Both the position numbers and the translations under genes were made by a program. From a virus, in the IMG/VR virus record IMGVR_UViG_3300032282_002403, positions 1-20,298 of that record: 20,298 nucleotides of DNA, one strand, 5' to 3'. The notes below the pieces were generated by a model. The model did no database searches. It had not been told where the DNA came from and saw only the letters and a list, made by a program, of their open reading frames with translations. This document shows, in pieces, positions 1-10,393 of this stretch (the first letter of the stretch is position 1; each line of letters starts with the position of its first letter).

Positions 1-3000
1 ATATGATAAATATACAAACAAAGATGAAAAATTTGGATTTGATAGTTCAGAATTTGATGTTGAAACTGATGAAATTATTCCAGATAATACTTATGATGTA
101 ACTTATGTTGATTATACAACAAAAGAAGAAGAAAGTTTTAGAGGAGTAAAAGGAGAAAGAACAATTTCAAAAAATGGCCAACCATTTATTAAATACACTT
201 TACCTAATGGTGAAGTTAAAAGAATACATGAAAATAATATTAAATCAGAAAATTTAGTTACAACTAAAAAAGTTACTAAAAAAGTTAAGTTTCAAGAAGA
301 TACCCCATCTAAATTAGTAGATGAAGAAGGTAATGAATATAATACTGCTGATTTTGCTGATCAAATTTTAGCAAGTGAAGATCCTAGTAACCGTCAAATC
401 ACAAAAAATTATATTCAAATTAGAAAAGAGTTAATTAATAAAGCTAGAATTAAAACTTTACAATCTACTATAGAAGCTAATAATCTAGCTATTACTCAAC
501 TACAAGAAGAAATAAATAGTTTTAAAAAAATAGCTAAAGAAAATTTAATATATTTATCTAGAGCTCTTACAAATAAAACACAAAAAACAACTGTTACAGT
601 TGACGGTCAAAAACTTAAAAAATCTGTAGCAGAATTAGAGCAATTAGTTATTGAAAGAAGAAATCAAATTAATGATGCACAAGAAAAAATTAATGCTATA
701 GAAAAAGAAAATGCATATATTGAAAATTCTAAAAATGATGATTTAAATAAAGTATATGATCAATATAATAATTTAGCTCAAGATGAAAAAAATCTAAGTT
801 TAAAAATTAAAGCAGTTAAACAAGAAATTGAAAAAGCTTCTAACAGACTTTCAGTTTTAGAAGATATAGTAGATAGACTTAAAAAGTTTGTTATTAATTT
901 ATTTGATATGCGTAAGCAAATACCTGATAGGTATCAAATAGCAGGTATTGAGATTAATACTAAAACTAGAGAGGCTAATGAACTAAGAGAATTAATTGAT
1001 GCTAAACTAAAAGAACTAGATTTCTTAGAAAAACTATATGTTAAATTTGAAAAAGAAAATAGTAATTGGGAAAATACTTTAATACAATTAATTAGAGAAA
1101 AAAATAAAGAAGTTTTAAAAGATATAAAAGCTAATAAAACTTCTGTTACAGAAGATCCTTTTATTGAAATAGCAAATTTATCAGATAAAGAAGAAGAGCT
1201 TAAAGAACTGTCTACAGCTAAAAAATCTATTTTAAACATGGCTAGTACTACTGGAATACATGTTGCTAATCCAGATACATTTAATGCTATAACTAAATTA
1301 GATATTGAAAGAGACAATGTTTCTTTAAGAGTAGTTACTAAAGAAATAGCACCTGAATTATTTAAAGAACCAGAAGAACTAGATCCTAGTAAACCTGCAA
1401 TTAAAGTTATTATTTACTCTAATGGTGTACCAGTAAATAAAAATTTAGAAGTTATTTCAGAAACTGACTATGAAAATATGTTAGTTTTAGATATTAGTGA
1501 AGCTACTTTACAATATAAAAATAAAGAGTTTGGAGATAAATTTTATGATTTACAAGCTTATGAAGAAACTCCTTATGAAGTAAAAAATGAAAATGATGAA
1601 GTTATTGAAGTAATAAGTGAAGCTGAACATAAGCGTAAGGAATATCAAACTTGGAGAGATAATGTTATAAATGAAGTAAATGAGGGAGAACCTAAATTTA
1701 TTTATCCTAAAGATAAATCTCAAGGTATTATAGAATTTGATTGGAGTAAAAAAAGAACTGAAGAATATGATACTACTGATGCTATTTATGATACTTTATT
1801 TTATAATTTATCACCGGCAGAAAGAACACAAGCTTTTAATAGCAGTGAAATTGTAATACCAGCTATTAATAAATTAAATGGTAAAAATGTAGTTCCAGGT
1901 TTACCTTATTTAGTTTATAATGGTAATGTTATACCATTGATAACTAGAAAGTTAAATAAAGAAGAAGTAAATGTTATTATTGATTTATTAAAAGCTAAAG
2001 AAATTGATTCTAATGTTTATCTAGATAGTGAAGTAAAACCTAATACAAAAAAAACTAAAGGTAAATGGACTAAAAGTAGAGTTAAAGGAGGTAAAGAATT
2101 AGATGGTACTAAAGATAAAAATGGTAATGTCTTAAAATGGTTTGAAGAAAAAACTGGTGAGAAAGAAAAGAAAAAAACTTATAGAAATAGAAAATCAAAA
2201 AGAGGTAAAAAGAGTTTTTATTATAAAAAAACAGGTAGAAAAAAAGGAGCAGGATTATATTATCAAAAAACAGAAACAGCTCCTAGAGAAAGTGTAAATA
2301 TTTTACAGTATTTACAATCTATTATTTATATGGGTAATCATTTAGCTGAAAGTAGAAATGAGCAAACAGAATTTTATTATGAAGCTAAAACTAAAAGATT
2401 AGTATTTTACGATTTTAAAGAACTTAAACAAGTTAAAATTCCATGTACAGCTAAAGCTATTGAAGATAATAGAGAAATATTAACTTTATTTTTACAGAAT
2501 AAATATCATCAAGTACATAAATCAACTTTAAATAGTCCGAGTACTAAAAAGTTTAATAAAATAACTAAGATAGAGGGAGGTAAAATAGAAGTTGAAGAAT
2601 TTACTTCATACAAACATTATTTACTTACTAATAAAAATAAATCTACTGAAAGAAATACAAATGATATTCCATTAACTACTAATATAGCAGATAAAGAAAA
2701 TCCAATTAAAAGTCAATATTTTACTTTTGAATCTTCAGCTAATCCTCAAGAAACAGGATTAAAAAATGCTGCTAAAAGTAAAAAATCTAATAAAGCAGCT
2801 CCAGTTAAAAATACTCCTAAAAAATCAGCTACTAAAGGGCCTTTAACTTTAGACAGTGTTATTGAAGGAATTGATAATGATGTTTTTTCTTTACCAGAAG
2901 ATGAGGATAGACTTGATAAGTTTTTTCAAGATTATGCTAAAAATGTATTAAAGATACCTAAAAAAGAAGTAGATAGTTTTCTAGCTAGTGTAGCTCAAAC

Positions 3001-6000
3001 AGTAGAAGATACTTTAGGCCTTGATTCAGAGATTTCTTTAGAGTTATATCAAGGTGTAGCTCTTTATCTAAAAGAAGATGAAGAGTCAGAAGGAACAGCA
3101 GAAAATTTAGAAGAAGAAATAGATGAAGAACCTGAGGTAGAAATAGATACAAATGTAAGTAATAATGATCCTTTTAGATTAGCTACTACTAAAGAATATG
3201 TAGAAGGTAATTATGAAAAAGCTAAAAAATGGTTATTAGAAAGATTTCCTAATTTAAAAGTAGAACAAGTAAAAGGTTTAATTGACAATAGAGCTTTTGG
3301 ACAAGCTTTGTATAATGCAGTTAAATTAGCTGAAACATTTGAAGAAGGTAGTGAATACCATGAGGCTTTCCACATAACTACTATGATGTATTTATCTAAT
3401 GATGAGTTAGATAAGTTATACAAAGAAGCAGCTTCTTTATATGGTAATCCTACGGTAAAAGATATTAGAGAACTACAAAAAATATATCCTAATTTAAATA
3501 ATACACAATTAGTAGAAGCTTATTATGAAGAAAAATTAGCAGAAGACTTTAGAAATTATGTATTAACAAAACAAAAAATAGCTCCTAAAGGATTAAAAGG
3601 ATTATTTCAAAAACTATGGAATAAAATTAAAGAATTACTTGGTATAGCTAATCATCCTAATATTGCTGACTTATTTGAAAAAATAGATACAGGGTATTAT
3701 AAAAATACTACGCCTGTTTACAATAGATTAAATAAATATAAAAAAAATAGTTCCTTAAAAGGATTAAGTGTATCAGAAAAACATAATTTAGTTGAGGGTA
3801 TTATAAGTATGGTTCTAAAAAATTATTTACAAAATAATAGTATTAGAACTTTAGGTTATGATAAATCAACTATAAAAAATTTAACTATAACTTTAAAAGA
3901 TGCTTTTATAAGTCATTTTCAAAAAAATGTTAATCATAAACATATAGTAGATTTATTAAAAAATGATTATAAATCTGTATTAGATGAAATTGCAAATTAC
4001 TTTAATCAATTTGGAGTTGAATTAACTTATGATGATTATATTGAAAATTTAGAAGAAGATACAAAACCAAAAGATCCTTTTAGTGATTCAATTGAGTTTG
4101 ATCCTGAAGAAACTACTAGTAAAGAAATAAAATTATTAATAGCTACATTACCAATATATAAAAATGGTAAATTAGAGTTAAATGAATTAGGATTGTTAAA
4201 GTTTTCTGAGTTTGGTTCTACTTTTAATTATTTAAGTAATTTGTTATCTGGATGTGTTACTTATGATGAGATGAGAGATAAAATAGTTGAGGCTATACCT
4301 TATAAGCCTGAATTAGAAATTTTATTAAATAGATTAGAAAGAACTTCAAATGATAAATTAGATGATTTTTTATTGCGCCAAAAGTTTACACAAGCTTTTG
4401 CTAAAACTAAATTAGAATATCAACAATGGTTAATTGAAGATGATGGAAATATTTATTCTACTAATAGTACAGGAGAATCTCAAGAATCTAGACAATTAGA
4501 TAATTGGAAAGTAGAAATAGCTGAAACATTAGCTTTTCAAGATTCACCTATTAAATTAGTTAATGATATTATTGTATTTAATGCTATTAGAATTGCTGAT
4601 AAATTTAAAAAAATTGAATCTTCTAAAACTACAATTGAAGAAAAAATTGTAAATAAATTTAAAACTTTAGGTATTGTATATACATTAATACCTAATTTAA
4701 CTAAATCAGATTTAAATAAAATTAATGAAACTTTAGAATTAATTGTAAGTAAAGGAATTAAAACTAATATTGCTTTAGAAACATTCTTTAAAAATGAAAG
4801 TTCAAGATTAAAGTTTTTATCTACTTTTGATTTAGGTATTAAAGATAATGATGTAAATTTACAACATATAGGTCCTGATGGTAAAACTAGATATTCGATT
4901 AGTTTAAATAATTACTTAACTTTAATAGGTAATACATTTAATAAATTACCAGCTTTAAAATCAAGAGAAGCTCTTTTTGCAGAACATCCTTATTTAGATA
5001 ATGCTTATACTCAAAATAGTTATTTTTTTAAATTAAATGGATTATTATTTGATGAATTAGGTAATAAAAGACCTAATTCTAAATTTACTATGTCTATTAT
5101 TGAAGGAGCCAGACAAGTAGAAGTAGGAGCTAATGGAGAAGCTATTGCAGATATGAAACCTGTAGATAAACTATGGTTATCAGTTAATAATATTTTAACA
5201 GGATCTATTCCTTTTTTAAGGGCCTCAGATAAATCATTAGAATTTGGTTTTAAATTGGATAAACCTTTATTTGATATAGAAAACATACAAGAATATGCAG
5301 TTAGAAATCAATATTTAACTATTTTAAAAGGGTATTTAAAAGATGAAATACATAGAACCAGATTACTTACTTTAAATGGTGTAGGAGCTAATATTAAATA
5401 CTATAAAGATCATGCATCTAATCTATATATGTTTAAAAAATATATTACTTTAGATAGTAGAGTATTAGATGATAAAAATGATGGCATTGTAGATACTTGG
5501 ATAAAAGCAAATGAAAGTTATATAGAAAGGCAACTAGATAAATGGATTAATGATTTAAGTAATACTAATTTAAATAAATTAGTAAAAAATAAAATCTTTC
5601 AAAAAACTGAAACAGGATATAAAAATTTAGGTATTAGTACATCACTTGAAGGAGTTTCTACTAAATTAAGTAACCAAAAAGCTTTTGATATTTGTAAATC
5701 TTTAGCTCTTAATTCTTTAATTGCTAACTTTGAACAGACTAAATTATTTACTGGAGATCCTGCAATGTATAAAAGTATAGAAGATTTTTATAAAAGAACT
5801 TCTGCAGCTGTAGGTACTAAATTAATGGCTTTTGATGATGAGTATATTAATAATTTTTTAAAAAGAAATAATAAAAGAACAGATAAAGTACCTAATGGCA
5901 GAGTTAAATGCGTAACATCAGTAGATGTTAGTTCATCTAGTCAACATTTAACCGAGTATAAAAAGATTTTAAAAACAAAATTTAAAAAAACTAAAGAAGA

Positions 6001-9000
6001 GATAGATTTTATATTAAGTCCTTATGAAAAAATGACTGAAAATGATGCTCAAGGATTTATAACTTTACCTGAGTACAGAGAATTTTTATTAAGAACAGGT
6101 ACTTATTGGACTCATTCACATGAAGATATTTATAAGAAAGCTTTAAATGGAGATACATTAACTGAAAAAGAATTAAATTATTTTCAACCTTTAAAAGCTC
6201 AACACTTTGGACCTAAAGCACAAGCTTCTTATGGAGCTAACTCAATAGCTAGTATGACTTTTTTAAAGTTATCATTAATGCCATTAATACCATCTGCTAT
6301 TAAAAATAGTAGTTTAGAGAAATTAAATATTGCTCTATTAAATTCTGGTACAGGTATTCATATTGCTGATTCAGGAACTAAATTAGGTGCTCAATTACAA
6401 TCTGATGGTAAAGGTAATTTCTTTCAACGGCCTTTTTATAATAGTAATGGATCTATAAATACTACTATTGCTGAAGATGCTACTTATGAATTGTACTATA
6501 AATTTTTAGGTATCCAAGTAGAAATTGCTTCATCAGTTAAATCTAAAACTTCTTATGGTACTCAGCAACGTAAACTTATTTTAAGTAATATCTTTAATGA
6601 AGCTAAGAGTAAAACTATGTCTTTTTTTAATACTAAAGGTAAAGTAGATTTAACACCTAAAGAATTACAACTAGAATATAATAAATTACTTAATGATTAT
6701 GTTAAGCTAGAACTAAATGATTTATTAAAAAGATTAAATGTATCTAAACAATCAAATGGGTCTTATATATTTAATGATGTTAAAAATGTAGCTAAAATTT
6801 TAAAAGATGAGGCTATATCAAGAAGAGCTCCTGCTAATTTAGTTGAAAGTATTCAAACTTTAACCGAAGCACAAATTACCAGCTTTAGAAATCCATTAGA
6901 TGCTTTACCTAATAGAAATAAAATTGAAAACATCTTATTAAGTTTAGTTAATAACTCTGCTATTAAACAAAAAGTAAAAGGTGGAGGTAAAATTCAAGGA
7001 TCTACTTCTGGTTTTGAAAATACTAAAAGAGAATTTGTTAAAGAAAATATTGTAAAATCAACTGGTCTAAAATTTTATAGAGAAGGTGCTTATGGAGAAA
7101 CCTTACCTGCACAATTTAAAATGGCTTTACCTAAAGACATGATTGGTTATATGAATTTAGTAGGAGGATTAGATAAATTAAATGAATTATTAGCTTATGC
7201 TTTTAGTGAAGTTGAAGTCCCTGTTGAAGTTGATGGTAAAATAAAAATGGTAATAGATCCTAATAGATCTCCTAGATATAATCCTCAATTAGTAGCTAAA
7301 TGGTTATATGATAATCAAATAGATGCTGAATTTAATCCTAAATTATTTCAATTTATAGGTTATCGTATTCCTACTCAAGGATTAAACTCTATTGAAAATG
7401 GTGAGATTATAGGATTTTTACCTCCAGAGTCAGGTGATTTAATTGTAGTACCAGCAGAAATCGTAGCTAAGTCAGGTTCCGATTTTGATATTGATAAATT
7501 GAATATCTTTTTACATAATTTTAATAAAAAAGATTATACAAGTTATTCAGATTTAAACACTAAAGAAGGTATCTTTAATAGACTAATAGAAATTAATCAA
7601 TTAGTATTATCTTCTCCAGAAAATTTTGAAGAATTAATTACTCCTAATAGTGATGATGTTATTAAAAGTATTGCTCATAAAATTAGAGATACTAAAAATT
7701 TAGCTCTTAGTAAAAATCCTAATAGTATTTTAGAATGGGATTACATTCAAGATATTGCTAACTATTTTTTAGTAGGTAAAGCAGGTGTTGGTCAAAAAGC
7801 TTTACACAATACTAGTCATGTATTATCTCAGCAAATTGGTGTTAAAGTTAATACTACTTTTAAAACTCCTAGTAATAAAGAAAAAAGTACTAGATTATTT
7901 TTTAAAGGTTTAGAAAATGAATATAGTTTATCAGCTGAATATGATATAAATAGGACAAATAAAATTACAGATATTATATCTCAATTTATAAATGGTTTTG
8001 TGGATGTAGCTAAAGAACCTTATGTATTCTTTTTAAATGCTAATACAAGCACTAATGATACTATTTCTTATTTGTTAAGAAGAAAAGTTCCTATTCAAAC
8101 AATAGCTAATTTTATGGTTCAACCTATTATAGATGAATATCTAAGTGCTCAAAGCATTAATGAATCTATGATGATAAAAACAAAAGGACAAGAATTAGAT
8201 AAACTCTCTTTATTAAATGAAGTACAAGATAAATACAAAGAGTTATTAAAAGAATTAAATGGTACTTATAATTCTGATTTATTGTTTACATCAGAAGAAT
8301 TAGAAGAATCTTTAAAATATTCTTTTAATGATCTACCTAAAAATAATAGTGCTAAAATTAAATGGTTAAAAATACAACTTCAAGTATTAGATAATTTTAT
8401 TACTTATCAAGAACAAGCTACTGTATTAAATGATATAATGTCTATAAATAAACCAGATACTACTACTCCTAAAAATTTAAATAGCTTATATACATTAAAA
8501 GTAATTAGAAAAAGAGTTAAAAATGCTAATTTAATAAGTCAAGAATATATAAATGCTTTTAAAAATGAAACTATGCTTAAAGGGTTTCATGCTGCTCAAG
8601 AAGAAACAGAGTTTTTATATACAGATTTATTTATAACAGAGTCTAAACCTGTTAAAGATAAATTGTTAGGATTACTTTCATTATATATTAATACTAGAAA
8701 ATCTCAAACAGATATTTCTGAAGTATTAGATTTATTTAAAAATGATTTTATAACTTTTTTATATAGTACAGCTAATACGGTTAAAAAAGGTAAGAGAAAT
8801 ACATTTTTAAGTAGTTTAATTCCAGAGTTATTTTTTGATAAAGATTTTTCAAATGAGGCTAATTTAGATGTAGCTCAAAGATTAGCTTCATTTAAAAAAA
8901 GTGTTAAGTATAAACAAGATCCATTTTTAAAGTCTATTATACCTTTAATTAATGATAATAAAAGAAGTCAAAATAATATTAAGTTCTTTAATAAAAAGTT

Positions 9001-10393
9001 AACTAAATATAAAGAAGATATGTTAACTGAGACTTTTAGAAATTATTTAGATTCAGTTACTTCTGTAGGTAAAGACGATCATTTATTTTTAAAATTACAG
9101 TATGTATTTATGTTGCAAGGTGGGCTACAAAACTCTCCAGTATCTTTCTTAGATAAAATTCCTCATGAATACTATAGTAAATTAGTAAGTATTGCTTTAA
9201 ATCATTTTAAAGATAATCCAGAAATAATTGAAAATTTTATAGATCAATTTTATAGAAATAATTATAACAATACTACTTTAGTACCTAAATCTAAAAACAA
9301 TTATTATAAATCTGCTGAAGATAAATTTGTTTATGATAATACTAATGTTAATTCTGAATTTCCTTATATAAAAAAATGGATTAAAGAAGAAAACGAATCT
9401 AAAATTAAAGCTGGATTCCCTAAAGGTTATTGGGCTTTATATAAAGGTTCTAAAGGAGAAAAAGAAACTACATTTAGTAGAGTAAGTAAATTAGGAGATG
9501 GTTTTTATTTAAAAGAATACTATCCTACTTTAAGACCATCAGTTATAGCAGCTAATAATGTAGCAGAAGATAAATTTGAAACTACCAAATTAATTAATAA
9601 ATTTGACACTTTAAATGAACCAATGACTATAGCAGAAGAAGTTACTACAACTACTGTGTACCCAGGAAAACCTGAATTTAACAGTCTTCCAGCTAAGTCT
9701 GATGTTCTTACAATGACTTATGCAGGTATTGGTTCTAGACAAACTCCTCCAGAAATTCTTAAACAAATGACACAAGTAGCTAAAGAACTTGAAAGTATAG
9801 GTTATACTTTAAATACAGGTGTAACATTTGGTGGTAAAAAAGAAGGAGCAGATAAAGCATTTGATGATGGTACTTCTAAAAAGAATTTATTTTCTCCTGA
9901 AAATCAAGGATCTAGAAAAAAAGAACAAGCTATTGCTAAAGAAATACATCCTAATCCAAGTGCTTTATCTCCAGCAGCATTAAAGCTAATGGCAAGAAAT
10001 ACTAATCAAGTATTTGGAGATAATTTAAATACTCCTGTAGATTTTGTATTATTTTATGCGGAAGAAACTGCTAATTCTTTAAGACCAAAAGGTGGCACAG
10101 GACAAGCTGTTGAGATGGCCAGAAGAAAAGGTATTCCTACTATTAATATGTCAAATCCTAATTGGATTGATCAACTTAAAGTTGCACTTGCTAACAAATC
10201 TACTCAACCTACTACTAGTGCTAAAACTACAACAACAGAACTTACAGATTCTACAGTTAATTCATTAAAAGAAGCTTTTGGCATGGATCCTGAATTTTTT
10301 GAAGATAGAGGAATTACTAAAGAAGAAGATTTTGATGAGCTATTACCTAAACAATTAAAAGAATTATTAAAAAAATATTGTAACAAAAAATAA
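1..10393 (+). CDS. Giant multidomain virion RNA polymerase (crAss-like), 5' end outside window
   Basis: Likely the DNA-dependent RNA polymerase packaged in the virion and injected to transcribe early phage genes, as known for gp66 of crAss-like phage phi14:2. The frame is open from the first complete codon at position 2, with no stop, so the Met codon at 908 is internal and the true start lies upstream; at least 3463 residues are encoded here. Visible order, numbering from position 2: coiled coil (about 140-380), Lys/Arg-rich linker (about 679-760), zincin-like module with HEAFH (1120-1124), long helical region, polymerase core with SGSDFDID (metal Asp 2494, 2496 and 2498), then a SLOG domain (about 3238-3400). 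The upstream GYRIPTQG and downstream INGFVDVAKEP motifs also fit this polymerase family. It ends in TAA overlapping the next ATG by one base (TAATG), so translation is probably coupled. It is longer than the roughly 2200 residues of phi14:2 gp66. Polymerase assignment is strong; roles of the other regions are inferred. Confidence 0.88.
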   Translation, partial: YDKYTNKDEKFGFDSSEFDVETDEIIPDNTYDVTYVDYTTKEEESFRGVKGERTISKNGQPFIKYTLPNGEVKRIHENNIKSENLVTTKKVTKKVKFQEDTPSKLVDEEGNEYNTADFADQILASEDPSNRQITKNYIQIRKELINKARIKTLQSTIEANNLAITQLQEEINSFKKIAKENLIYLSRALTNKTQKTTVTVDGQKLKKSVAELEQLVIERRNQINDAQEKINAIEKENAYIENSKNDDLNKVYDQYNNLAQDEKNLSLKIKAVKQEIEKASNRLSVLEDIVDRLKKFVINLFDMRKQIPDRYQIAGIEINTKTREANELRELIDAKLKELDFLEKLYVKFEKENSNWENTLIQLIREKNKEVLKDIKANKTSVTEDPFIEIANLSDKEEELKELSTAKKSILNMASTTGIHVANPDTFNAITKLDIERDNVSLRVVTKEIAPELFKEPEELDPSKPAIKVIIYSNGVPVNKNLEVISETDYENMLVLDISEATLQYKNKEFGDKFYDLQAYEETPYEVKNENDEVIEVISEAEHKRKEYQTWRDNVINEVNEGEPKFIYPKDKSQGIIEFDWSKKRTEEYDTTDAIYDTLFYNLSPAERTQAFNSSEIVIPAINKLNGKNVVPGLPYLVYNGNVIPLITRKLNKEEVNVIIDLLKAKEIDSNVYLDSEVKPNTKKTKGKWTKSRVKGGKELDGTKDKNGNVLKWFEEKTGEKEKKKTYRNRKSKRGKKSFYYKKTGRKKGAGLYYQKTETAPRESVNILQYLQSIIYMGNHLAESRNEQTEFYYEAKTKRLVFYDFKELKQVKIPCTAKAIEDNREILTLFLQNKYHQVHKSTLNSPSTKKFNKITKIEGGKIEVEEFTSYKHYLLTNKNKSTERNTNDIPLTTNIADKENPIKSQYFTFESSANPQETGLKNAAKSKKSNKAAPVKNTPKKSATKGPLTLDSVIEGIDNDVFSLPEDEDRLDKFFQDYAKNVLKIPKKEVDSFLASVAQTVEDTLGLDSEISLELYQGVALYLKEDEESEGTAENLEEEIDEEPEVEIDTNVSNNDPFRLATTKEYVEGNYEKAKKWLLERFPNLKVEQVKGLIDNRAFGQALYNAVKLAETFEEGSEYHEAFHITTMMYLSNDELDKLYKEAASLYGNPTVKDIRELQKIYPNLNNTQLVEAYYEEKLAEDFRNYVLTKQKIAPKGLKGLFQKLWNKIKELLGIANHPNIADLFEKIDTGYYKNTTPVYNRLNKYKKNSSLKGLSVSEKHNLVEGIISMVLKNYLQNNSIRTLGYDKSTIKNLTITLKDAFISHFQKNVNHKHIVDLLKNDYKSVLDEIANYFNQFGVELTYDDYIENLEEDTKPKDPFSDSIEFDPEETTSKEIKLLIATLPIYKNGKLELNELGLLKFSEFGSTFNYLSNLLSGCVTYDEMRDKIVEAIPYKPELEILLNRLERTSNDKLDDFLLRQKFTQAFAKTKLEYQQWLIEDDGNIYSTNSTGESQESRQLDNWKVEIAETLAFQDSPIKLVNDIIVFNAIRIADKFKKIESSKTTIEEKIVNKFKTLGIVYTLIPNLTKSDLNKINETLELIVSKGIKTNIALETFFKNESSRLKFLSTFDLGIKDNDVNLQHIGPDGKTRYSISLNNYLTLIGNTFNKLPALKSREALFAEHPYLDNAYTQNSYFFKLNGLLFDELGNKRPNSKFTMSIIEGARQVEVGANGEAIADMKPVDKLWLSVNNILTGSIPFLRASDKSLEFGFKLDKPLFDIENIQEYAVRNQYLTILKGYLKDEIHRTRLLTLNGVGANIKYYKDHASNLYMFKKYITLDSRVLDDKNDGIVDTWIKANESYIERQLDKWINDLSNTNLNKLVKNKIFQKTETGYKNLGISTSLEGVSTKLSNQKAFDICKSLALNSLIANFEQTKLFTGDPAMYKSIEDFYKRTSAAVGTKLMAFDDEYINNFLKRNNKRTDKVPNGRVKCVTSVDVSSSSQHLTEYKKILKTKFKKTKEEIDFILSPYEKMTENDAQGFITLPEYREFLLRTGTYWTHSHEDIYKKALNGDTLTEKELNYFQPLKAQHFGPKAQASYGANSIASMTFLKLSLMPLIPSAIKNSSLEKLNIALLNSGTGIHIADSGTKLGAQLQSDGKGNFFQRPFYNSNGSINTTIAEDATYELYYKFLGIQVEIASSVKSKTSYGTQQRKLILSNIFNEAKSKTMSFFNTKGKVDLTPKELQLEYNKLLNDYVKLELNDLLKRLNVSKQSNGSYIFNDVKNVAKILKDEAISRRAPANLVESIQTLTEAQITSFRNPLDALPNRNKIENILLSLVNNSAIKQKVKGGGKIQGSTSGFENTKREFVKENIVKSTGLKFYREGAYGETLPAQFKMALPKDMIGYMNLVGGLDKLNELLAYAFSEVEVPVEVDGKIKMVIDPNRSPRYNPQLVAKWLYDNQIDAEFNPKLFQFIGYRIPTQGLNSIENGEIIGFLPPESGDLIVVPAEIVAKSGSDFDIDKLNIFLHNFNKKDYTSYSDLNTKEGIFNRLIEINQLVLSSPENFEELITPNSDDVIKSIAHKIRDTKNLALSKNPNSILEWDYIQDIANYFLVGKAGVGQKALHNTSHVLSQQIGVKVNTTFKTPSNKEKSTRLFFKGLENEYSLSAEYDINRTNKITDIISQFINGFVDVAKEPYVFFLNANTSTNDTISYLLRRKVPIQTIANFMVQPIIDEYLSAQSINESMMIKTKGQELDKLSLLNEVQDKYKELLKELNGTYNSDLLFTSEELEESLKYSFNDLPKNNSAKIKWLKIQLQVLDNFITYQEQATVLNDIMSINKPDTTTPKNLNSLYTLKVIRKRVKNANLISQEYINAFKNETMLKGFHAAQEETEFLYTDLFITESKPVKDKLLGLLSLYINTRKSQTDISEVLDLFKNDFITFLYSTANTVKKGKRNTFLSSLIPELFFDKDFSNEANLDVAQRLASFKKSVKYKQDPFLKSIIPLINDNKRSQNNIKFFNKKLTKYKEDMLTETFRNYLDSVTSVGKDDHLFLKLQYVFMLQGGLQNSPVSFLDKIPHEYYSKLVSIALNHFKDNPEIIENFIDQFYRNNYNNTTLVPKSKNNYYKSAEDKFVYDNTNVNSEFPYIKKWIKEENESKIKAGFPKGYWALYKGSKGEKETTFSRVSKLGDGFYLKEYYPTLRPSVIAANNVAEDKFETTKLINKFDTLNEPMTIAEEVTTTTVYPGKPEFNSLPAKSDVLTMTYAGIGSRQTPPEILKQMTQVAKELESIGYTLNTGVTFGGKKEGADKAFDDGTSKKNLFSPENQGSRKKEQAIAKEIHPNPSALSPAALKLMARNTNQVFGDNLNTPVDFVLFYAEETANSLRPKGGTGQAVEMARRKGIPTINMSNPNWIDQLKVALANKSTQPTTSAKTTTTELTDSTVNSLKEAFGMDPEFFEDRGITKEEDFDELLPKQLKELLKKYCNKK
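420..1150 (+). other. Predicted coiled-coil region of the giant polymerase protein
   Basis: Residues about 140-380 of the visible product are rich in Glu, Lys, Gln, Ile and Leu with heptad-like spacing (for example around QLQEEINSFKK and INAIEKENAYI). There are almost no Pro residues. This is typical of long helical coiled coils. The part upstream of 420 is less helical and contains a short beta-rich stretch around TYDVTYVDY. Function is unknown; an extended helical rod would suit assembly with other virion cargo. Confidence 0.55.
2036..2280 (+). other. Lysine-rich basic linker in the giant polymerase protein
   Basis: About 80 residues carry about 30 Lys or Arg, including clusters such as EKEKKKTYRNRKSKRGKK, with Gly and Tyr between them. 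Such low-complexity basic segments commonly bind nucleic acid or act as flexible linkers. Nothing identifies it as a folded domain. Confidence 0.5.
3290..3720 (+). other. Zincin-like metallopeptidase module (HEAFH) inside the giant polymerase protein
   Basis: The HExxH motif HEAFH is encoded at 3359-3373 and is preceded by an acidic FEEGSEY stretch. About 50 residues later comes EEKLAEDF (3527-3550), in which a Glu could be the third zinc ligand. A basic amphipathic stretch follows (LKGLFQKLWNKIKELL), as is common after such domains in large phage proteins. The two zinc His and the catalytic Glu are all present, so the site could be active. Cleavage of the giant protein or of host targets is inference; the motif is short, but the downstream Glu makes chance less likely. 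Confidence 0.6.
6200..8170 (+). other. RNA polymerase catalytic core with DFDID motif
   Basis: The core is recognised from a run of motifs. DSGTKLG (about 6368-6388) resembles the Lys-bearing segment of the beta-like double-psi barrel. GYRIPTQG (from 7358) corresponds to the conserved Arg-Pro-Thr region before the active site in beta-prime. SGSDFDIDKLN contains the three metal-binding Asp residues at 7481-7495, equivalent to NADFDGD in cellular RNA polymerase. GKAGVGQKA (from 7775) and INGFVDVAKEP (from about 7988) follow in the order expected for crAss-like and YonO-like enzymes. The DxDxD motif assignment is firm; the beta-like Lys assignment is tentative. Confidence 0.85.
9710..10200 (+). 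other. SLOG (DprA/LOG-like) nucleotide-binding domain fused to the polymerase C-terminus
   Basis: The stretch begins YAGIGSRQTPPEI and continues with GADKAFDDG, an HPNP segment, LMARNTNQVFG, a hydrophobic VDFVLFYAE strand and KGGTGQAVEMARRKGIP. Together these are the signature of the SLOG superfamily, Rossmann-like domains that bind nucleotides or NAD-derived ligands. Thr/Ser/Pro-rich linkers lie on both sides (EEVTTTTVYPG before, QPTTSAKTTTTELTDST after), marking it as a separate module, and about 45 residues follow before the stop. Leu is coded CTT seven times between about 9685 and 10242, whereas TTA dominates the body, a weak hint of separate origin. The ligand cannot be told from sequence. 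Confidence 0.82.

Follow-up and report, generated by a model that had tools for sequence, protein, structure and literature searches.

A SLOG-type domain fused in frame to a Crassvirales-type virion RNA polymerase as an exchangeable cassette

The window analyzed here, the whole stretch of 20,298 nucleotides at positions 1 to 20,298 of the virus record IMGVR_UViG_3300032282_002403, carries a giant open frame in which a virion RNA polymerase (vRNAP) is followed, in frame, by a SLOG-type Rossmann domain with a lead-in segment (residues 3220-3399, positions 9659-10198; Table 1). No internal stop interrupts this frame from base 2 to 10393. The first-pass annotation, made from the letters of the DNA, had proposed such a fusion of a SLOG domain to a crAss-like vRNAP, and the four motifs on which it relied, YAGIGSRQTPPEI, GADKAFDDG, LMARNTNQVFG, and KGGTGQAVEMARRKGIP, are all present at the place and in the frame described, within the last 240 residues, with the Thr-rich linkers that it mentioned on both sides of the domain. 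The polymerase section can be assigned to the vRNAPs of Crassvirales by its DxDxD motif (GSDFDID), by its homology to gp66 of phi14:2, annotated as “Catalytic RNA polymerase subunit” (tblastn E 5e-10, with many Crassvirales also matched), and by synteny with a gp65-like gene. With other Crassvirales vRNAPs (phi14:2 gp66 and the gp47/gp49/gp50 cargo of crAss001) it has in common the DxDxD section, an adjoining RNA-polymerase-associated protein, and the gene order, which is phi14:2-like in the window and runs from the polymerase over the associated protein to convergent replication genes. However, gp66 of phi14:2 (2,180 amino acids, aa) has no SLOG match, whereas the window frame unites an N-terminal section, the polymerase, and the SLOG domain in a single chain. 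A near DNA relative of the window was not found in INPHARED, and relatives of the polymerase were found only via an alignment, a scan with the window sequence alone giving none.

By sequence, the SLOG domain belongs to the phage family PHROG 768 (“DprA-like DNA recombination-mediator protein”), whose profile it matches with E 2.4e-44 over residues 105-270 of the C-terminal 330 aa and over profile positions 4-186 of 191. Searches of Pfam, NCBIfam, and PADLOC gave no match on the window copy (the PADLOC scan covering the C-terminal 330 aa). The Pfam family PF02481 (DprA) weakly matches sister copies at 16-20 bits, which is below the cut-off of 29.6 for membership in DprA/Smf. Sequence searches of PDB with the domain or its profile returned nothing relevant. 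An AlphaFold2 model built from 32 aligned copies has a mean pLDDT (predicted local distance difference test) of 92.1, and the best Foldseek match to this model in PDB is DprA from Helicobacter pylori (E 3e-4, probability 1.00), ThsA ranking lower (probability 0.91, E 0.07). Among viral models, Foldseek ranks phage DprA-like proteins highest, together with SLOG proteins of the YspA/cpYpsA type. The Rossmann-type fold of the model, the conserved residue after strand 1, the helix Arg, and the GG loop with its helix place the domain in the SLOG superfamily. Profile and structure search therefore bear out the superfamily named by the first-pass annotation; by sequence, the domain falls into the DprA-like PHROG 768 and not into the ThsA (STALD) family. 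The SLOG domain of ThsA from Thoeris has the same superfamily fold and may have its pocket Ser, Arg, and Glu in corresponding places, but it is a host defence sensor fused to SIR2, its structural match to the window domain is weak, and a sequence match is lacking. No SIR2 or TIR match, as would be expected for a ThsA/STALD pairing, was obtained in the C-terminal 625 aa scanned or in P0002-P0004.

Stand-alone PHROG 768 proteins, a family matched by 1,400 INPHARED phage records, share the fold, the motifs GIGSR, GAD.AF, RN..Q, and GGT..A, and up to about 42% identity with the window domain. In contrast to these proteins of about 150-220 aa, the window domain resides within a polymerase of 3,463 aa or longer, belongs to a separate clade, is accompanied by a conserved lead-in of the pattern P.F..LP.KS..PTMTYAGIGSR, and has Glu or Asp in place of Arg or Lys. 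In a tree of 65 sequences, 32 cassette-type domains lie on one side of a branch with a support of 100/99 and the stand-alone phage relatives on the other, although the cassette scan was seeded with M[AS]RNTNQ and EQ[AD]IAKE, a choice that in part predetermines both the invariance of RNTNQ (alignment A2) and the clean monophyly. These domains form one clade that is found almost only in giant phage proteins; at 31 of the 32 distinct loci they reside in open reading frames (ORFs) of 1,269 aa or more, and only in locus L010 is the frame shorter, with 279 aa. The acidic exchange concerns the position after the GGT loop, Glu152 of the window domain, which lies outside every scan seed. Of 65 stand-alone relatives, 54 have Arg or Lys there and 6 have Glu (including one spurious pattern match), whereas Glu or Asp is found in 29 of the 31 readable copies of the cassette clade. 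The ligand pocket of ThsA is lined by Ser288, Phe357, Arg371, and Glu403, the latter residing in the helix after the last strand (PMC7272460), and 3'cADPR, an isomer of cyclic ADP-ribose (cADPR), is contacted by Lys388, Arg371, and Glu403 (PMC10022894).

Table 1. Position of the giant frame, its sections, and adjoining genes in the window.
Feature	Positions	Strand	Remarks
Giant open frame	2..10393	+	Start beyond the window; 3,463 aa; N-terminal section, vRNAP, SLOG, tail
N-terminal section, residues 1-914	2..2743	+	Collinear with SLOG-free relatives L068 and L077
Linker, residues 915-1056	2744..3169	+	Equivalent linker in L015 houses the SLOG domain
vRNAP section, residues ~1057-3219	3170..9658	+	Homology to L067, L068, L070, and L077
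GSDFDID catalytic motif (DxDxD), residue 2492	7475..7495	+	Polymerase
Lead-in YPGKPEFNSLPAKSDVLTM	9659..9715	+	Conserved; travels with the domain
SLOG (DprA-like) domain, TYAGIGSR to last helix	9716..10198	+	PHROG 768, AlphaFold2, Foldseek
Ser26 of the domain, loop after first strand	9734..9736	+	Invariant in fused, stand-alone, and permuted rows
Arg113 of the domain	9995..9997	+	Invariant likewise; putative counterpart, by topology, of ThsA Arg371
Glu152 of the domain, in GGTGQAVEMA	10112..10114	+	Putative counterpart, by topology, of ThsA Glu403 and of the LOG Glu
Thr-rich linker and C-terminal tail	10199..10390	+	Cys3460 at 10379-10381
Ferritin-like protein, 165 aa	10393..10890	+	Between both polymerase genes; PF00210 E 1.5e-20
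Second giant protein, 1,948 aa	10893..16739	+	Related to Crassvirales RNA-polymerase-associated subunits

Comparison of the loci characterizes the SLOG domain as a recurrent cassette, exchanged between lineages and positions independently of the polymerase. The polymerase motif DFD(I/V/G)D occurs in the same frame as SLOG at 18 loci, with SLOG being C-terminal in 16 and upstream in 2, a count in which polymerases may be missed at loci without the motif, since the loci were cut 10 kb upstream. For instance, the copies of L014 and L015, which are 73-74% identical to that of the window, precede the polymerase, whereas in L006, L007, L009, and the window itself the domain is C-terminal. The L015 domain (residues 1741-1928) is flanked by matches to window residues 763-914 and 1059-1383 and therefore sits in the linker equivalent to window residues 914-1059. 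The homology of the window polymerase to the SLOG-free L067, L068, L070, and L077 stops at residues 3173-3236, where the L068 protein ends; in the window, the SLOG domain is inserted where the polymerase naturally ends and is followed by a conserved tail that bears a Cys. Identities of SLOG and of the polymerase core are uncorrelated over 136 pairs (Spearman rho 0.06, p 0.52), SLOG being more similar than the core in 124 of them, and the cassette SLOG is absent from all 80 polymerase-anchored loci. The fusion itself thus stands, but it is not private to this polymerase, as the cassette shifts between sites of giant proteins. The window protein resembles in this the polyvalent proteins (Iyer et al., 2017; PMC5512222), which are large, have many domains, are borne by the virion, and can exchange their effector domains. 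Mobility of the domain and the presence of companion domains are found here as well, and the virion-borne part is given by homology only. PMC5512222 mentions neither SLOG nor crAss, and the carrier in our case is a vRNAP.

A cluster of CTT leucine codons had been read as a hint at separate acquisition of the domain. CTT indeed encodes 6 of 14 leucines in the domain, as against 21 of 325 in the rest of the frame (Fisher p 3e-4), and no other 540-nt segment reaches as high a share. In the SLOG-bearing L006-L008, CTT makes up 28-45% of leucines throughout, and pooled over the 32 loci the enrichment is not significant (p 0.15). Being specific to the window, it thus points to a recent transfer into a genome poor in CTT and not to a trait of the cassette itself. 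The codon pattern in the window would fit a recent transfer from a genome like L006-L008. Separate acquisition is borne out by CTT usage, by the decoupled identities of SLOG and polymerase, and by near relatives without the domain.

A related domain has reached other crassviral polymerases. RefSeq labels the vRNAP genes of cr109, cr113, and cr130, crassviruses from the human gut and from primates, as “DprA-like DNA recombination-mediator protein”, a label on whole polymerases that stems from the appended domain. The C-terminal domain of these vRNAPs matches PHROG 768 with E ~1e-13, but in a permuted order, with the GIGTR strand placed behind the GGT segment and not ahead of it. The same permuted order is seen in L124/125, where the domain is upstream of the polymerase, and in L133, L139, and L140/142, and a diverged copy exists in cr272. 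The cpYpsA family PF12694 weakly matches the permuted SLOG of the cr109 and cr130 vRNAPs (E 0.005-0.02); this cpYpsA-related SLOG family resembles the permuted domain and differs in strand order from the window domain. Since the strand order is different, the permuted form was recruited separately, so that SLOG domains joined crassviral polymerases at least twice. Such repeated recruitment argues for a function that is useful to injected polymerase proteins. The vRNAP genes of cr109, cr113, and cr130 read TAG as an amino acid, and a survey of gut crassviruses by ORFs of the standard code misses the domain. In many gut Suoliviridae (L045-L064), the genes for the vRNAP and its associated proteins contain dozens of in-frame TAG but neither TAA nor TGA, and by their codons these viruses are predicted to reassign TAG in late/virion genes.

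With regard to companion domains, a DUF4326-like domain is encoded in 7 of the 32 SLOG ORFs versus none of 72 SLOG-free vRNAPs, the match in L039 (E 3.5e-6) being above the Pfam cut-off. Phage SLOG and DUF4326 domains have been predicted to process ADP-ribose derivatives (PMC9503650). A DUF7831-like domain, often diverged, is present at the C-terminus of 38 of the 72 SLOG-free vRNAPs (for example, L099:12788-13186), in most of them about 33-44 residues before the end, and is rarer with SLOG (4 of 32). Its motifs FVFGDN/GGQA and GxGTG had raised the idea of a macro domain; the AlphaFold2 model (pLDDT 90) has no significant match in PDB (best E 0.27), and we therefore claim no ADP-ribose companion there. 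Dda-like helicases occupy the vRNAP C-terminus in cr118 and cr50 (L050, L058), where others bear SLOG, and 2-oxoglutarate-Fe(II) oxygenases of the AlkB type occur within giant crass-type virion proteins of L018, L021, L026, L040, L124, and L125. The ferritin-like gene is found directly 3' of the vRNAP gene in the window, L031:13657, and L008:12487, all with SLOG, and in L139:8026, with permuted SLOG; in L146:4596 it precedes the polymerase frame, and the copies are 42-74% identical. In the N4-like Stenotrophomonas phage Pokken, a stand-alone DprA-like gene (L152:598-1116) is situated among the first genes, in an early position, a few genes before the cofactor resembling the single-stranded DNA-binding protein gp2 of N4.

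The tail that follows SLOG has a feature of its own. When window Cys3460 and the vRNAPs of L002-L146 and L048 were counted, a Cys was present in the last 8 residues of 78 of 80 distinct vRNAPs, mostly at position -1 to -4, in proteins with a Cys content of 0.05% of residues (median 2 per ~3,500 aa). It is also present in 17 of 20 motif-bearing RefSeq vRNAP genes. Almost every crassviral polymerase has such a tail with a near-terminal Cys, whether it bears SLOG or not. In phi14:2, the sole Cys of gp67 is the last residue, and a C-terminal Cys is absent from gp65-like and other phi14:2 virion proteins. No paper on the C-terminal Cys of vRNAPs was found in the literature. Possibly it serves as a signal for packaging, anchoring, or ejection, and it offers a separate lead on how cargo is packed or ejected.

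Polymerase-associated proteins of crAss001 were found in virions by mass spectrometry and were modelled as partly unfolded during ejection (PMC10172136), and the phi14:2 enzyme has been described as a virion component that is translocated with the DNA (PMC7886860). From homology to these two phages we infer that the window protein is packaged in the virion. The SLOG domain would then be packed as cargo of the polymerase, reach the host cell by ejection, either ahead of the DNA or together with it, and refold there, the fusion to the polymerase serving as its ticket for packaging and delivery. Acting before the expression of any phage gene, its Ser/Arg/Glu pocket might bind an ADP-ribose-type signalling nucleotide (a cADPR isomer or similar) originating from TIR-type defences of the host, and the domain might cleave this signal at the N-glycosidic bond. 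Phage proteins that bind or degrade cADPR signals exist, as is mentioned in PMC13232231. An ADP-ribose-type ligand is favoured because of the acidic pocket residue, the DUF4326-like companion, and the published prediction for SLOG and DUF4326. That the domain binds, and perhaps hydrolyses, such a host signal on delivery is the reading we prefer, and we would give it not quite an even chance of being correct.

Several points weigh against it. The acidic residue is missing in L041 (Ile) and L015 (Gln), the contrast between Glu and Arg may have arisen just once, along the branch leading to the fused clade, and hence count as one observation, and Glu152 is equated with ThsA Glu403 by topology and motif, not by superposition. 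The DUF4326-like call consists of one Pfam match above the cut-off and one weak match (E 0.014), other accessory domains are enzymes that act on nucleic acids (AlkB-type oxygenase, RNase H, SF1/Dda helicase), and the closest solved fold, that of DprA, is DNA-binding. The last two points lend weight to the main rival explanation, a DprA-like role in which the domain binds single-stranded DNA or RNA and aids the injected polymerase, be it by holding the non-template strand, by protecting the DNA as it enters, or by loading a recombinase. The weak PF02481 matches of sister copies, the DprA-like name of PHROG 768, and the location of those enzymes at neighbouring accessory sites agree with such a role, and the Rossmann domain of H. 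pylori DprA binds single-stranded DNA via basic residues (PMC4489622). However, replacement of the usual Arg in the pocket helix by Glu or Asp disfavours a surface for DNA phosphates at this place, the accessory DNA-binding and oligomerisation domains of DprA are not evident, and in sequence the domain is distant from the catalytic site, on either side of the polymerase. We consider a DprA-like role unlikely. An allosteric sensor, in which a nucleotide reporting the state of the host switches the polymerase or its release and is not neutralised, would resemble ThsA, whose SLOG domain senses a ligand and shares its polypeptide with the effector to which it is coupled (PMC7272460, PMC10022894). 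A fixed place and co-evolution with the polymerase would be expected in that case, but position varies and identities are uncorrelated; furthermore, most relatives lack SLOG and the clade also occurs in giant proteins in which no polymerase motif was seen, which makes a sensor of this kind rather improbable. A LOG-like hydrolase that frees bases from nucleotides for metabolic rather than defence-directed purposes can draw on Arg and Glu at LOG-like positions (the helix before, and the GGxG..E helix after, the last strand). It seems quite improbable to us, as GGTGQAVE stands in place of the PGGxGTxxE of LOG phosphoribohydrolases, the Glu varies (Asp, Gln, Ile), and no library gave a LOG family match. 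An artefact, in which mis-assembly or the loss of a stop would have fused two genes, is hardly conceivable, although the first-pass annotation had cautioned against joining by error: nothing was found in its favour, the frame is open, the fusion recurs in many independent contigs, and the conserved Cys tail follows SLOG in frame, which marks the fused C-terminus as genuine.

The SLOG family, the crassviral vRNAPs, and polyvalent proteins are each already known. Full-text searches, which covered few subscription papers, turned up no study linking crAss-like phages or Crassvirales to SLOG or DprA. Apparently new are the exchangeable SLOG cassette on a vRNAP, the separate clade that it forms, and the second recruitment in permuted form. 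Returning to the preferred reading of the domain as an injected binder of a host signal, we put forward, somewhat more tentatively, that crassviruses possess a dedicated injected SLOG lineage, borne on the virion polymerase in the form of swappable cassettes, that neutralises or reads an ADP-ribose-type immune signal before transcription of any phage gene, with straight and permuted topologies having been recruited separately. Among the viruses of the human gut, Crassvirales are the most abundant, and little is known about their response to signalling-type defences. The swappable SLOG cassette suggests a ready-made tool against host chemical alarm signals at entry. To our knowledge, the phage proteins so far described as binding or degrading cADPR signals are expressed after infection; if the proposal is true, a SLOG domain arriving with the polymerase would, unlike these post-infection anti-cADPR proteins, act at time zero.

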